Positions 44,180-56,854 of a DNA stretch of 64,000 nt are shown here, in pieces (the stretch's first letter is position 1; every line of letters starts with the position of its first letter). The stretch covers positions 1 through 64,000 of the forward strand of contig NZ_LOCN01000022.1 of assembly GCF_001574435.1 (NCBI RefSeq), written 5' to 3'. The position numbers and the translations under genes are program-made. The DNA is from Moritella sp. JT01 (GTDB taxonomy: Bacteria; Pseudomonadota; Gammaproteobacteria; Enterobacterales; Moritellaceae). The notes under the pieces were generated by a model. That model did not search any database, was not told the origin of the DNA, and saw only the letters and a program-made list of their open reading frames with translations.

Positions 44180-46090
44180 TTATGCGCTAATCACCACATC
44201 CGTTTGTGGAATGCAGCTACACGCCAATATTTTTTTCGCCTTTTTACCATCATCTGTTAATGCATGGTCGGCAAGTACGCGCACTTCACCCGACTCTAAC
44301 GTTACGCGGCAAACACCACAATAACCTGCACGACAGTTATAGGGAATATTCACGCCATTTTTTTCGGCTTGTTCTAATAATGTGGTTTTGTTATCACCAA
44401 CAAAACTAGTATCCCAACTATCCAATAAGATATTCACTGGTTTACCTGGGGTATCAGAATGTTTATGGTCTCCAAAACTCTCTTGAAATTGTTGATCAGC
44501 GGGTACATCCAATGTAGTGAGCGCTGTAGCCATAGTCATCATGAAGGCTTCGGGACCACAGACATAAGCTGAGCGGTCACTTATATCACGCACAACATCA
44601 GCCAGCATTTGCTGGTCAATACGTCCTCTTAACCCCGTCCAATCACTCTGTATACTTTCAGCCGTCAACGTTAAGACTAAACGCATATTGGAATGTTGAC
44701 GAGTGAGTAATTGCAGTTCATCAAGGGCTATCAAGTCTACCGCTGTTTTTGCACAGTAGAAGAAGACGATATCTTTATCACATTCGGTATCCGCATAATA
44801 ACGCGCCATTGAAAGCATAGGAGTAATACCACTACCCGCTGACAGTAATAATAATTTTTGTGTCGTTGCTGTAAAGGCATGGAATGGCCCACGTGGTGAT
44901 GACGCACCTAACCGATCGCCAACCGCTAAATTGTCATTTAACCAATTTGACGCTTTACCATCAGGGACCCGTTTTACCGTAATCGCTAACAAGTCAGGGC
45001 GGCTTGGTGATGATGACAAGGTATAATTACGCATCACCAGATTCTGACCAATCTTTAAATTAAGGGTAATAAATTGACCGGGTTTATAGTTCAATAGCGT
45101 AGCTGGTTCAACACGAAAGCGAAATGTCTTAGTATCTGGTGTTTCATCAATAACCGCGACACAGCAAAGCTGGCGAGTTTCATTTTTATTCCACAAGGTT
45201 TTAGGTTCAGAATTATGGTTTATTGCAGTCTTTGGTGCTGACACAATTGGTGTTTGTTTAGGGCGGTTATCGACATAAAATTTAGGCGCGTGGTACTCCA
45301 ATATTTCAACAGTATCACCAAGCTTAATTTCCTCATCGTTATGACTAATTAAATTTTGGCCAAAATCGATCTTACCATCATTACCTTTGCGGAATAAACT
45401 TAACGTCTTAAGCGGTTCTTTATCTTCAGAAAATCTTGTTTCTCCTGGACTTAATGTCGTAAATATACAACGCTCGCAGGGTTTCACTAATTCAAATTCA
45501 GCATTACCAATTTTGATCCGCTTCCAACTATCTTCCGCAAATGGTTCACAGCCCGTCACAATGAAGTTAGCTCTAAATTGGCTCATCTCGATTGGTCGCG
45601 GAGTGCTGCGATTTAATTCATCAAGAGAGGCTTGTGAAATTAATAAAATCGGATAGCCATCAGCAAAACTTAATTGTTTATCGAAATTAGAAACCTGACG
45701 TGACGAGCCTGTTCCAAAATAAAGTAACTGGCAGTCTATCTGTAAGAACTTACCAAGCCATTGGTTAATCTCTTCGCTGCAACGCTGACCTTGAATAGTC
45801 GTTCCCCAAACCGTTACATCTGTATAATCCTTCTGTAGCGCTTTAAACGTGAAAGCAATCGGCGGCATCAGTGGCGCTGAAAGCATGATTCCTTGCGCCA
45901 CAACTTCAATTTTAATCCTTGTGATTTTAGGCTGAGTTCGCCCCGTAATAAACTGTCCTTGCATGTCACTAATAACAAATCTGCGATCATGTTCTAAGCC
46001 CATTTCACTCACATGGGAATGGGTTAAGTTAATTGCTTTTGCTGATTTTAATGGGTAAATAGCAAGTGCAGATAAATTTATTTTAGCCAC
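44180..46090 (-). CDS. MOSC-domain molybdoenzyme fused to flavin reductase and 2Fe-2S ferredoxin domains
   Basis: This 636-residue cytoplasmic protein has three parts. Residues 1-~275 are a YcbX/mARC-like MOSC_N-MOSC unit, with the likely molybdenum-ligand cysteine in VKPCERC (C205/C208). Residues ~310-535 are an FAD/NAD(P)-binding reductase (MRNYTLSSSP for flavin, LLSAGSGITPMLSM for pyridine nucleotide). Residues ~550-636 are a plant-type 2Fe-2S ferredoxin with C586, C591, C594 and C624. E. coli YcbX has the MOSC and ferredoxin parts only and takes electrons from CysJ to detoxify N-hydroxylated bases. Here the reductase is built in, so a self-sufficient N-hydroxyl reductase is plausible. The substrate is inferred. 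Confidence 0.88.
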   Translation of the reverse strand: MAKINLSALAIYPLKSAKAINLTHSHVSEMGLEHDRRFVISDMQGQFITGRTQPKITRIKIEVVAQGIMLSAPLMPPIAFTFKALQKDYTDVTVWGTTIQGQRCSEEINQWLGKFLQIDCQLLYFGTGSSRQVSNFDKQLSFADGYPILLISQASLDELNRSTPRPIEMSQFRANFIVTGCEPFAEDSWKRIKIGNAEFELVKPCERCIFTTLSPGETRFSEDKEPLKTLSLFRKGNDGKIDFGQNLISHNDEEIKLGDTVEILEYHAPKFYVDNRPKQTPIVSAPKTAINHNSEPKTLWNKNETRQLCCVAVIDETPDTKTFRFRVEPATLLNYKPGQFITLNLKIGQNLVMRNYTLSSSPSRPDLLAITVKRVPDGKASNWLNDNLAVGDRLGASSPRGPFHAFTATTQKLLLLSAGSGITPMLSMARYYADTECDKDIVFFYCAKTAVDLIALDELQLLTRQHSNMRLVLTLTAESIQSDWTGLRGRIDQQMLADVVRDISDRSAYVCGPEAFMMTMATALTTLDVPADQQFQESFGDHKHSDTPGKPVNILLDSWDTSFVGDNKTTLLEQAEKNGVNIPYNCRAGYCGVCRVTLESGEVRVLADHALTDDGKKAKKILACSCIPQTDVVISA

Positions 46091-47172: not shown

Positions 47173-48795
47173 CTACTCTTCTAAGCTGACTTTGCACTCT
47201 TTATTAATCGGCAGGACCACGTCTGTAACGGGTATTTCAAAACCAAGCACACGTACCGTTTCGTCAATTAAAGCCTGCTTGGATATCGGTTTATTAATAT
47301 AACCGTCCATTTCTGTATGCTTACAGGTCACTAGATCAAATTTAAATGCATCCTCTATAAGCGCTATAATGGGAGTGTCACGATTATCACTCGTACCGGC
47401 CCTAATCATCTTGGTCGTTGCAATACCATCTGGACCAGGGATCTGCATATAAATAATATCGAAAATGTATTTTTGGATCAAATCAAGGCCTTCTAAACCT
47501 GTATTCGCAGTAAACACCTGCATTTGCAATTGCGTCAGAGCTTGCTGAAAAACAATTTGATTCATTTTATTATCTTCGATCAATAATACTTTTAACCCTG
47601 CTAATTTATCTAATGCTAAATCACTACTACCAATAATATGCTGTGTGCGTAATTGGTAAGCATGAGGCAACCTTAAATTAATCTTAAATTGTGCACCCTC
47701 ACCTAATTTACTTTCGACTTGTAAACGACCTTGCATTAAGTTAATCAAACGGGAACAAATCGCTAAGCTTAAGCCTCCACTTGGTAAATCATTGGATTTA
47801 TGATTATAAGGTAGCTGCTCGTTATCAAACAAATGCGCAAGTTTAGTCACTGGAATACCAATGCCAGTATCACTAATCGTAAAAACAATATCTGCTACAG
47901 CCACCTCTTCATTTGTATCATCGACCTTACTGCAATTGACTTTAAGTTCAACAAAGCCTCTATCGGTAAACTTCAACGCATTCGCAACCAAATTGACCAG
48001 CACTTGTTGTAACCGAACCGGATCACCGATATAAAACCGATGCAGATCGTCACTATAATTCAGGCTAAAGCGTACGCGTAAATTGTTATGCACAAACGGA
48101 CGTAGCGAGGTGTAAACTTGATCGAGTATTTCTAACAAATCAAAACGAACTTTAGCGAGTTCTAAATTACCCGATTCGATTCTCGAGTAATCAGTAACAT
48201 CATTCAGTACCATCTGCATATGATTAGCAGAGTGCTTCATTAACTTCAGATATTCTGCGGATTTAATATTTTGTGGCATTTCACAAAGTAACTCAGCAGT
48301 ACCTAGAATACTATTCATTGGCGTTCGAATATCATTACTTAAACTCTCGACAAATTGCTGCTTAGATTGCGCTAACAGTATTTTATTTACTCGAGGTTCG
48401 GTCATTGTCTCTATCTGATCATTCAATAAGTTAACTAACCCATCCAATTCTATATAAGGAGAGCTAAATGGTTCATGATGATTATCTTTATCAGCAAGCG
48501 CGTCATGGCACTTTTGTTGTAGTTTCGCTAATGGCTTGGAGACTAATTTGTCTAACACCAATTTTGAGATAACAAGCGAGATTAATAATAGTGGCAATAT
48601 TGTTAATAAAAGGTTTATTTTTAAGGTCGTAAATACATCTATAAGTAATGGGTTAGCTTGTTGAAGTGTCACTTCAATCGCAATAAAAATACCCGCAATA
48701 ACCAACGCCAACATCACTAACAATAATGTTCTTATTTTACTATATAACGAATATTGTAAAATGACTTTACTTGAATCGACCTTGATATCACGCAT
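47173..48795 (-). CDS. Hybrid histidine kinase-like protein lacking both phosphorylation residues
   Basis: This 540-residue inner-membrane protein has two N-terminal helices (~20-40 and 57-80), a helical linker, a HisKA-like domain (~140-210), an HATPase domain (~250-375) and a receiver domain (~400-520). The H-box reads LSNDIRTPMNSILG, with Asn (N154) where the phosphoryl-accepting His of SHEIRTP should be. The receiver keeps IEDN and the KP lysine but has Gln (Q451, in IYMQIPGP) where the phospho-Asp belongs. ATP-binding motifs (NALKF, DTGIGIP) are still good. It is probably a pseudokinase or scaffold, not a working phosphorelay protein. I start at ATG 48795 (AAGG 9 bases upstream); ATG 48804 is too close. 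The periplasmic loop is very short, about 15-20 residues. Confidence 0.85.
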   Translation of the reverse strand: MRDIKVDSSKVILQYSLYSKIRTLLLVMLALVIAGIFIAIEVTLQQANPLLIDVFTTLKINLLLTILPLLLISLVISKLVLDKLVSKPLAKLQQKCHDALADKDNHHEPFSSPYIELDGLVNLLNDQIETMTEPRVNKILLAQSKQQFVESLSNDIRTPMNSILGTAELLCEMPQNIKSAEYLKLMKHSANHMQMVLNDVTDYSRIESGNLELAKVRFDLLEILDQVYTSLRPFVHNNLRVRFSLNYSDDLHRFYIGDPVRLQQVLVNLVANALKFTDRGFVELKVNCSKVDDTNEEVAVADIVFTISDTGIGIPVTKLAHLFDNEQLPYNHKSNDLPSGGLSLAICSRLINLMQGRLQVESKLGEGAQFKINLRLPHAYQLRTQHIIGSSDLALDKLAGLKVLLIEDNKMNQIVFQQALTQLQMQVFTANTGLEGLDLIQKYIFDIIYMQIPGPDGIATTKMIRAGTSDNRDTPIIALIEDAFKFDLVTCKHTEMDGYINKPISKQALIDETVRVLGFEIPVTDVVLPINKECKVSLEE

Positions 48796-49064
48796 TCCAT
48801 ACATCCTTCTATTACCTATATAATAAATTTAGCTAAAATTGTCAAAATTGCTGCAATAACTAATATTTTTTCATTAATGACAAATGCACAATGCGCTTTT
48901 AAAAAGGGATAATGATTTATTTCTGAAGGCATCTTCTGTTTATGCTGTATAATAGCCAGCAGTCACTAGAAAATAGGGTTGGAATTTGAGCTTTGCTCCT
49001 ATATAGTTCTCGCCCCTAAATAATTTCTAGCCATTATTTTAATTCTATTTAAGAGGTAGCTTCT

Positions 49065-50488: not shown

Positions 50489-50604
50489 TTAGGCTGATTG
50501 TATCCATGAAGTATATGGATATAAAAGTAATGGTACTGTGATTGAAATGTGATAATTGCTCGCTAATATTTAAATTAACATTTAATTTGAATATCGAGGC
50601 CATT

Positions 50605-51306
50605 ATGAAGTTTATCTACATACCACTACTTTTTTTAACCATACTGCTTGCAGGCTGTGATGACTCAAACTCCTCCAGTATAAATAACATCAACCCAACC
50701 GATGACGTCGTTTACGAGCTTACCTTTAACTCCAACTGGAGTGCAGCTAACTTTCCAACTAATTACCCCGCGACAGCACACTTCTCTGGCTTAATAGGCC
50801 TTACTCACAACAATCAAATTAATATTTTTAGACGCTCAGAGTTAGCCAGCCCTGGAATCATTGTTGTTGCCGAAACGGGAGAAAAAGGCACACTAATAAA
50901 TGAAATCAACACGCACATAACCAATAACGATGCCGATAAAATCGTCGACGGAGCTGGAATCCCTGCAGATAGTAACTCGGTTTCATTAAGTTTCTCTGCT
51001 AACACCAATTATTCTTACTTCTCAATCGTATCTATGCTGGCACCTAGCCCAGACTGGTTTACCGGTATTGATAATTTGCAACTATATGAAAATAATAAAT
51101 GGAAGGATAATTTAACCCTAAATCTACGCGTATATGATGCAGGCAGCGATAGTGCAGACACTTTTACTGCAGCTAATGCACCTCAAATAAACAAAGATGT
51201 TATTACACGCCTTACAACAGATTCAGCAGATACTAACTTTTTTGATGGTGTACATCGTGACAATGGTACATTTATTGGTACTATTACACTAAAGTTAAAA
51301 CCTTAA
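50605..51306 (+). CDS. Lipoprotein with spondin-N-like domain
   Basis: This 233-residue exported lipoprotein has the signal peptide MKFIYIPLLFLTILLAGC with lipobox LAGC (Cys18). The mature part matches the spondin_N style: VYELTFNSNWSAANFPTNYP at the start, FSIVSMLAPSPDWFTGIDNLQL in the middle and a C-terminal IGTITLKL strand. Related bacterial proteins are secreted or surface lipoproteins of unknown role. Asp at position 19 after the Cys (GCDD) would favour inner-membrane retention by the E. coli rule, though that rule may not hold here. I start at ATG 50605, with GAGG upstream. Confidence 0.85.
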   Translation: MKFIYIPLLFLTILLAGCDDSNSSSINNINPTDDVVYELTFNSNWSAANFPTNYPATAHFSGLIGLTHNNQINIFRRSELASPGIIVVAETGEKGTLINEINTHITNNDADKIVDGAGIPADSNSVSLSFSANTNYSYFSIVSMLAPSPDWFTGIDNLQLYENNKWKDNLTLNLRVYDAGSDSADTFTAANAPQINKDVITRLTTDSADTNFFDGVHRDNGTFIGTITLKLKP

Positions 51307-53133: not shown

Positions 53134-55641
53134 TTAAACGATTTCGATTGGACCACCGAATCCATTAACGGCCGGTGCTTTACCTTTGAATTTCTCAAAC
53201 TCTACCTGACATGTATTTGCCGAGGTTGCTTGCGCAAGTTCAGAGGTACCCACATCCATCGTTAAGTTGTTTGGATCGCCATAAGTACAAAGTGAGCCGA
53301 TACTTTCGTCTTCAGGGCTATACCAAGCACCCTCTTCAATACGAATAACATTCACCGGGTAGTTATCATCAATTACTGCACCTGCTAGTAGCTGACCACG
53401 GTCGTTAAATACACGCACGATGTCACCGTCTTTAATGCCACGTTTCTTCGCGTCTGCGGAGTTCATGTAAACTGGTTCACGACCTTGAACTGTGTACGTT
53501 GCGCGGAATTTTTCTGATTCACACATTTGTGAATGCAGGCGTTTATTCGGGTGACAAGACTGCATCCATACAGGGAATTCAGCTGATTTCGGACCACCGT
53601 GTGAACGTTCTGTTTTCTCGAACCACATAGGGTGGCCTTTACAGTGCTCATAACCAAAACGCGCAATCTTACGACTGTAAATTTCAATGAAACCAGATGG
53701 TGTACCCAGTGCATTAACTTCAGGATCTTCACGGAAGTCGGCATGACGCGTCCAGTTTTCACCGTCACCAAAGTGGAAGTAACCTTCTTTCCAAAATTCA
53801 TGGAAGTCAGGCATATCCCATTTTCCAACATTCGCATCTTTTGATTTGTTATACAGCGTTTCTAACCACTGAACTTCACTCTTACCTTGAGTATACTCTT
53901 TGCTCTTGCCCCAACGTTTCGTTAATTCAGTAAAGATCTCAAAGTCAGTTTTAGATTGGAATAGCGGGTCAACTAGCTTCTTCATACCCAGTAAACCTTT
54001 CGCACGGTATGAACCATAGATATCTAAATCGTTACGTTCGTACTGCGTACAAGCTGGTAACACGATATCAGAAAAACGACACGTTGCTGTCCAGTTATAA
54101 TCAATCGCGATCACAGTTTCCAGTTTCTGGAATGCCGCTTTCATGTTGTTGCGATCTTGATGACGATGCCAAGGGTTACAACCCGTGAATACCATCATTT
54201 TGATATCAGGGAAGGTGATTTTTGAACCATTGGCATCAATCACTTTACCTGGATTTTTCAGCGCATCAACAAAGCGTGCTACAGGGATCGTAGAACTCGC
54301 GCCTTTGAAGTCTTTGCTTTCGTGACGTGGTTTTTGGCCTGAATCTGGGTTACGAGGGAATGAACCCGCACCAACTGCACCAGAAGTAGGTACACCAATA
54401 GAGCTATAGTGATGACCATAGCTGATGCCACCGCCAGGTAGGCCGATTTGACCAATCATGGCAGCTAATACCGCGCCCATCCAATATGGTTGTTCACCAT
54501 GTTCCTGACGTTGAATTGACCAGCCAAATAAGAATTGAGTACGACCGTTAGTAATTAAACGAGCGAAGTCACGGATGTCATCAGGCGATACACCACAAAT
54601 TTCGCTCGCCCATTCAGGCGTTTTCTCAACTTTATCTTCTGTTTCACCCTGCACGTATTTCAAGAATTCTTCAAAACCAAGTGCATAAGTATCTAAGAAT
54701 TTCTTATCATGTAGATCTTCTTTTACCATAGTGTGTGCTACAGCAAGCATAAACGGTACATCGGTATGTGGATTGATGTATCTGTGTTCATTACCTAAGA
54801 AGTTTTGCGTTTTGTTCTTAACCGGATCAACACTGATCACGCGGATTTTCTTTTCAGCAACTTTATCTTTTAGCGCTTCCAGATATTCAAAACTATCATG
54901 GGTTTCACAGTTCCAACCTACTTGTAGGTTTTTCACTGGATCCGTTGCCCATAAGATAATGGTTTTACTATTATCTAGAATTAACTGCCATGATGTACCC
55001 GGTGCATATACTTCTGTCGAACCAAGTACGTAAGGCAAAATTGTTTGACCGGCGCCCGTTGAGTAATCGCCAACATCTTTTACTGACGCACCGTGCATTG
55101 CGATTGCACGCGCCATGTGGCTACCACAGCTATGTAGTTGACCTGTTGCACGCCAACCGTTAGCACCTGTATGTAGACCTGATGGACCATACGTATTCTG
55201 AACACGTTCTAATTCTTCGTAGAACATGTCTAACGCTTGATCCCAAGTAACACGGATGAAGCGATTATCACCACGTTGTGTTGTATCACTCTTCTCACGG
55301 TTCAGATACCAATCTAAACGAACCATAGGGTAACGAACACGTGATGGACTATAAATAATCCCTTCAATGCCTTGCAGCATGTCCGTTGGATATTTATCTA
55401 ACTCAAAGGCTTTAACTTCTGTAACCTTGCCGCCGTGGATTTTAGCGCGGAATGCCCCCCAGTGCGAACCAGTTAACCTCCATTCAGCACGCTCAGCCAT
55501 CGTTGCTGCGTTTGCTGTTTTTGGTACTAATAAACTAGGACCAATCACCGCCACTGCTGATGTTGCCATCACACCTTTTAGAAAAGAGCGACGACTGACA
55601 GATACATTTTCATTTTTAGACTTTTTGTCTTTATTAAACAT
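53134..55641 (-). CDS. torA: Periplasmic trimethylamine-N-oxide reductase TorA
   Basis: This molybdenum enzyme (bis-MGD) reduces TMAO to trimethylamine as a terminal anaerobic electron acceptor. It has 835 residues (E. coli 848). A Tat signal, [20 protein letters not shown], covers residues ~17-36. The likely Mo-ligand serine is in [13 protein letters not shown], and [30 protein letters not shown] and [11 protein letters not shown] match TorA. I choose ATG 55641, with AGAGAAG 7 bases upstream. An upstream frame start at 55671 overlaps torC. It follows torC by 19 bases. Its specific chaperone gene torD is not nearby. Confidence 0.95.
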
Positions 55642-55660
55642 AGTCATACTTCTCTTTGAA

Positions 55661-56854
55661 TTAGTGAGCATCTTTGCTGTAATCTGATGAATGGTTTTGT
55701 AGATACTTCAAGATAACATCATGTGTATCACCATCTAAGTTCACAAAACCTTGCATGCCAGCAAACATACCAACCCACGTATTTGCATCGAAATGAGCTT
55801 CTGCTGGTTGGGTATGACAAACACTACATGTGGTTTGGTAAGCCTCTTTCGCGTAATCCCAAATGTTTTGTAGGTTCTCTTCATACCCTTTCTTATCAAC
55901 CCATAATGTGAACGTTACTTGTTCCCAAGGTAGACCCGTTAAATCATCTTCTCTCTTATCACCACGTACGAATAACGATTCATCTTGTGATGCTTCTTTT
56001 GACAATGTTGCTTGTACAATATTTTTAGCAAAATCAAAGTACAGTACGCGACCGTAACCTTTGGCTTTATGCCAAGTCACTAATTCAATTTCCAGACGTT
56101 GACCAGACTCAGCGATAACTTTAAACTTAGTCGCAGGTGTTAATACACCCAGGTACTCAGGTTCTTTATCATCTATATAAAGTGGTGTTTGCACCAGAGA
56201 ATAGTACTCTTTACCAATTTCAAATGAGTGACCTTCCAGGTTTCTCGCCATTTTACCCAGTTCACTGATTGCAGATGTATCCATTTCAGGTAGGTGGTGG
56301 GCAATACCTTTATGACAATCTAAACAAGATTGATCACGTTCTGCCGCTTTACGCATTTGTACTTGCGCACGTTCAGACATTTTGGTGAAATCCATGCTCT
56401 TATAATCATGACAGTTTTTACATTCTAAAGAACCGTTGGCTTTAAATCGAGCCCATTCGTTTTGCGCTAAGTGTAAACGCTTAGATTCGAATTTTTCTTT
56501 CGTATTCACCGTACCCAATAACCAACCAAATACGTCTTTACTCGCACGCGCTTTGGCTGCGATTTTGTTTTGCCAGCGATGGGGAACATGGCAATCAGGG
56601 CAAGTAGCACGGACACCACTACGGTTTGACCAGTGAACCGTAGTTTGAATTTCTTGATAGTTATTTTCTCTCATACTGTGACAAGAAATACAAAATGCTT
56701 CTGTATTTGTCGCTTCTAGCGCGGTATTGAAACCACCCCAGAAAATAACGCCCGCAATAAAAGCAGCACAAGTCACAACACCTAAAGAGATATGTTTACT
56801 TGGTTTATTAAACACACGCCAAGAGCGAGCGATTATAGAGAATAATTTTTTCAT
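55661..56854 (-). CDS. torC: Pentaheme c-type cytochrome TorC
   Basis: This 397-residue inner-membrane cytochrome transfers electrons from menaquinol to TorA. An N-terminal membrane helix (~20-45) precedes a NapC/NirT-type domain with four heme motifs (CISCH, CPDCH, CKNCH, CLDCH). A C-terminal domain carries a fifth, CSVCH (~347), as in E. coli TorC. It lies between torE and torA. Its start is 26 bases from a run of five 9-base repeats. Confidence 0.95.

Follow-up and report, generated by a model that had tools for sequence, protein, structure and literature searches.

A hybrid histidine pseudokinase conserved in the genus Moritella

A gene for a hybrid histidine kinase that has lost the phospho-accepting residues of both of its signalling domains was found in a 64,000-nucleotide stretch of the genome of Moritella sp. 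JT01 (hereafter the window). As in DivL and RocA, the kinase fold has been kept by selection while catalytic residues have been lost, and the protein is almost certainly catalytically dead, as judged from its sequence. On balance, we take it to be a membrane-anchored hybrid histidine pseudokinase, specific to this genus, that uses its DHp domain for binding and thereby modulates another two-component system. Few bacterial histidine pseudokinases have been characterized, and automatic annotation would label this one an ordinary hybrid sensor kinase, wrongly predicting phosphotransfer. The Moritella protein has lost the His, the Asp and a normal ATP lid, yet it occurs throughout the genus and its DHp domain has hardly changed, which points to a split of binding function from catalysis brought about by natural evolution. 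Pseudokinases are known as a kind and a literature search returned precedents, but nothing on the Moritella protein itself, which as far as could be found is undescribed.

Domain organization and catalytic residues

The coordinates of the gene and of its features are collected in Table 1. Of the two candidate start codons, the one at 48795 marks the point from which the orthologues in all 11 Moritella genomes align. The product consists, in this order, of a transmembrane (TM) hairpin, a HAMP-like linker, and HisKA, HATPase and receiver domains; the last three were all detected above the Pfam cut-offs and follow one another as in hybrid histidine kinases. The periplasmic loop between the predicted helices is short, a large sensor domain is absent, and a Pfam search detected no PAS domain. 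The AlphaFold model of the protein was of moderate confidence (pLDDT 68.5).

Table 1. Positions in the window of the pseudokinase gene and of its domains and diagnostic residues.
Feature	Position	Strand	Basis or remark
Pseudokinase gene	47173..48804	(-)	ATG at 48804 gives 543 aa, ATG at 48795 gives 540 aa; stop 47173-47175
Two predicted membrane helices, ca. residues 21-43 and 60-82	48550..48735	(-)	Sequence; TM limits by eye; AlphaFold helices 8-46, 49-101
HisKA/DHp domain, residues 144-209	48169..48366	(-)	Pfam PF00512, E 4e-15
N154 (AAT), in place of the phospho-accepting His	48334..48336	(-)	Invariant in 11 species
D155-I-R-T158: acidic H+1 residue, docking Arg, phosphatase-motif Thr (D/ExxT)	48322..48333	(-)	Invariant in 11 species
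HATPase_c domain, residues 257-377	47665..48027	(-)	Pfam PF02518, E 1.4e-21
Altered G2 box/ATP lid PSGGLSL (canonical GGTGLGL), residues 338-344	47764..47784	(-)	Alignment to intact kinases
Receiver (REC) domain, residues 403-511	47263..47589	(-)	Pfam PF00072, E 1.2e-14
E407-D408, receiver acidic pair	47572..47577	(-)	E-E in one species, E-N in two
Q451 (CAG), Gln of DxQMP moved into the acceptor slot	47443..47445	(-)	Gln in all 11 species (CAG or CAA)
I480, receiver switch Thr/Ser position	47356..47358	(-)	I/A/V/T across species
K502, conserved receiver Lys, kept	47290..47292	(-)	Invariant in 11 species

The H-box reads SNDIRTP, with the Asn codon exactly where the original prediction had placed it, and an Asn stands in place of the phospho-accepting His in all 11 species. 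Within the genome of the window, the pseudokinase is the only one of 30 HisKA regions in which the His is replaced; 28 of the 29 others carry the His in an open frame. The 29th belongs to a CpxA-like kinase gene (near position 35877 of contig C35), in which a TAG codon was observed straight after the phospho-His, between ISH and LRSPL, in a frame that is otherwise open. Seven other hybrid kinases were detected in this genome.

The ATP site was altered as well. The original prediction had described an open frame with intact ATP-binding motifs; the frame is indeed open over 540-543 codons, but the motifs are only partly preserved. The N-box and G1 box are kept. By contrast, the G2 box has diverged from the canonical glycine-rich motif (Table 1), with G340, G341, L342, S343 and L344 invariant in the 11 species; the F-box (FxxF), just upstream, reads FDNE and lacks the second Phe, and the lid Arg is absent.

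In the receiver, the Gln that had been read as replacing the phospho-accepting Asp is encoded at that place, but the correspondence is positional only and does not reflect a swap. When aligned with 19 intact hybrid kinases, FDIIYM--QIPGPDG matches FDLILMDxQMPxMDG with a two-residue gap that falls between M450 and Q451, so that Q451 pairs with the conserved Gln of DxQMP. Most simply, the Asp and the residue next to it would have been lost together by a two-codon deletion (LMDxQMP to YM--QIP), and on this simplest history the deletion would have placed the DxQMP Gln at the end of strand 3, which in the AlphaFold model spans residues 447-452, Q451 included. An Asp-to-Gln exchange combined with deletion of Gln-Met is a possible alternative history that needs more changes. 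Contrary to what had been stated, the remaining receiver residues are not intact either: the switch Thr is replaced by Ile, Ala or Val in nine of the 11 species and is present in two, and the acidic pair is altered in three, the Lys being kept. Given that the acceptor loop is two residues shorter and that most species have lost the switch Thr, normal switching by the receiver is unlikely. The suggestion that a Gln point substitution locks it in one state was not supported.

With no His and a degenerate ATP lid, autophosphorylation would be impossible, as would acceptance of phosphate by a receiver that has no Asp. The protein may have residual ATP binding or phosphatase activity.

Conservation and distribution

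Each of the 11 Moritella genomes, the window's own included, contains one orthologue, and the ten others are 64-97% identical to that of the window. An alignment of these orthologues, one of the checks originally proposed, showed that neither the Asn nor the Gln varies in any of the 11 species, even at 64% identity. This invariance does not stem from too little divergence, since among 59 fourfold-degenerate codons conserved in the orthologues none had an unchanged third base across species. The presence of the same residues in 11 genomes of different species also rules out a reading or assembly error at the two codons.

The second proposed check, dN/dS (NG86), gave low values of 0.05-0.13 for the whole gene and of 0-0.06 (at most 0.057) for the DHp domain, its most constrained part; dS was saturated for distant pairs, so that the closer pairs alone are quantitative. 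The constraint on the DHp domain equalled or exceeded, approximately, that on the DHp domain of an active Moritella hybrid kinase of 610 aa, with dN of 0.021 for the pseudokinase and 0.050 for the active protein between the genome of the window (G000) and one other (G010). The gene is thus not a random pseudogene, as shown by its intact frame in all 11 species, its low dN/dS and a constraint like that of its active paralogue. Strong purifying selection has maintained the sequence, the DHp helices above all. With both changes fixed throughout the genus, it is the structure that selection preserves, and apparently not the transfer of phosphate. In this the original prediction was right at its centre, and wrong in two supporting details, the Gln swap and the intactness of the other motifs.

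The pseudokinase is restricted to the genus Moritella, being present in 11 genomes and not found in 383 others of the order. A profile built from the 11 orthologues retrieved no orthologue at E 1e-80 from these 383 genomes; a class-wide search at E 1e-65 added six matches, all ordinary active kinases with the His, GG(T/S)GLGL and the Asp; and a scan of genome contigs returned two Moritella records, both among the 11 genomes and with identical sequences, together with distant kinases. Orthologues with a normal His and Asp, named at the outset as evidence that would count against the prediction, were likewise not encountered in the 383 genomes searched outside Moritella. The nearest homologues, at 39% identity or less, are separate active kinases. 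The 11 orthologues formed one clade on a stem of ca. 1.5 changes per site, in a quick tree with many open forks that does not place the parent lineage.

Proposed function

Because the sequence is conserved, and especially so on the DHp surface, binding is the likely option that remains, and we infer a role as a scaffold or allosteric partner. The protein would act through the contacts that its DHp four-helix bundle makes with other proteins, most likely by pairing with an active hybrid kinase of the cell or by competing for its dimerisation. The kinase/phosphatase balance of the active partner would thereby be shifted in the manner of RetS or RocA, with input coming from the pseudokinase's own membrane and HAMP-like region. 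In Foldseek searches, GacS, RetS and the RetS-GacS complex were among the best PDB matches of the modelled kinase core and DivL came further down, with TM-scores over the query of about 0.3 and a likeness to RetS that reflects the general HisKA/HATPase fold; the core resembles GacS, RetS, HK853 and DivL, which is to be expected of any HisKA kinase core.

The DHp surface could also serve a read-out of the DivL kind, which we regard as unlikely though worth weighing: a docking surface formed by D155, R157 and T158 would bind a phosphorylated receiver, and the information would be passed to another kinase. The DHp segment does correspond to the docking surface of DivL, including R157, the equivalent of DivL R553 (PMC4211667), and it is invariant in Moritella. 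However, the phospho-specificity of DivL relies on PAS domains, none of which were found in the pseudokinase, and DivL, unlike the Moritella protein, retains every ATP motif and lacks a receiver.

Less credence is due to a stand-alone phosphatase, in which D155-xx-T158 and the docking surface would dephosphorylate a response regulator, or the receiver of another kinase, without any kinase activity. In some HisKA kinases, His mutants retain phosphatase activity, and neither the D/ExxT motif nor R157 varies among the 11 species; against this, the H+1 residue is Asp where Glu is usual, and the ATP lid, the usual helper of phosphatase function, is degenerate. DivL, moreover, keeps more motifs and yet has no phosphatase activity (PMC4211667). 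More doubtful again is a fully phospho-blind hybrid whose dead DHp domain dimerises with an active kinase while its dead receiver, with the shortened acceptor loop, acts as a permanent decoy on that kinase or on the Hpt partner of that kinase, a two-sided brake that would have evolved once, at the root of Moritella.

Gene neighbourhood

The pseudokinase gene lies in a block with the order murB, aroF, glpX, MOSC/ferredoxin reductase gene, yhhN, pseudokinase gene, rhlE, DUF808, yaeQ, torA, torC, which was the same in the window and in the six other species with which it was compared. Neither a cognate regulator gene nor a phosphotransfer gene adjoins the pseudokinase gene. At 44180-46090 of the window, beside glpX, MOSC_N/MOSC domains are fused to a FAD/NAD-binding oxidoreductase and a 2Fe-2S domain. 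A gene for a Spondin_N-domain protein (50542-51306) lies beside rhlE and had no match at E 1e-20 in six other Moritella neighbourhoods; it is probably a local insertion. Genes torA (53134-55671) and torC (55661-56854), encoding a TMAO reductase and a pentahaem cytochrome, form an operon-like pair that is syntenic in the genus.

Modulation of the TMAO respiration (tor) genes by the pseudokinase was judged very improbable. The top NCBIfam match of the protein is TorS, and torA and torC lie ca. 4-8 kb away in a linkage conserved in the genus. However, the TorS model (TIGR02956) scored 263.7 bits, far below its curated cut-off of 676.5, and all hybrid kinases tested outscored the pseudokinase on it, so that membership of the TorS family was rejected. 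Linkage lends no support either, since the entire block that contains the tor genes is syntenic, and rhlE, the Spondin_N gene, DUF808 and yaeQ separate them from the pseudokinase gene. That the gene is decaying and open by chance, a pseudogene in the making, is scarcely credible: several catalytic motifs are lost and it evolves faster than its neighbours (64% versus 81-97% identity in one genome, G006), but the intact frames, the low dN/dS, the nearly frozen DHp domain and the comparison with the active paralogue contradict such a reading.

Comparison with known systems

The active kinases of the BarA/ArcB/LuxQ/TorS class have the order HisKA-HATPase-receiver in common with the pseudokinase, at an identity of 39% or less. 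Unlike it, they have retained the His, the Asp, the glycines of the G2 box and the switch residues of the receiver, and several of them possess a larger sensor region as well as an Hpt domain.

DivL of Caulobacter crescentus, a HisKA/HATPase protein that also appeared among the fold matches (4q20), carries a Tyr in place of the acceptor His, as do its orthologues; it senses a receiver in the phosphorylated state and works with neither kinase nor phosphatase activity (PMC4211667). It contains PAS domains, keeps the H, N, G1, F and G2 boxes except for the His, and has no receiver, whereas in the Moritella protein the His has given way to Asn, the lid is degenerate, the receiver is dead and no PAS domain was detected. 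In a set of hybrid kinases from Bacteroidales/Bacteroidota (L036-L048), the H-box was observed to contain a Tyr (MSYEIRTPLN) and the N and G boxes to be degenerate, with the receiver Asp kept (DLIFMD); these seem to form a distinct and widespread pseudokinase family of the DivL kind.

RocA of group A Streptococcus, a membrane pseudokinase whose CA domain is degenerate, modulates the membrane kinase CovS (PMC7028121). It differs in having six TM helices and in retaining the His, which it can do without, and a receiver is not described for it; common descent with the Moritella protein is evidenced no further than the kinase fold. A ChrS pseudokinase obtained by laboratory evolution promotes signalling through a paralogous kinase (PMC9491836).

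RetS of Pseudomonas aeruginosa is, like the proposed role of the Moritella protein, a hybrid kinase that regulates another kinase by heterodimerisation, and it was among the best fold matches (6dk7, 7n0e), a likeness at the level of the fold. Its sensor region is periplasmic and multi-TM, in which it differs from the pseudokinase. The partner with which RetS heterodimerises is GacS, which it has also been reported to dephosphorylate (PMC12189002).
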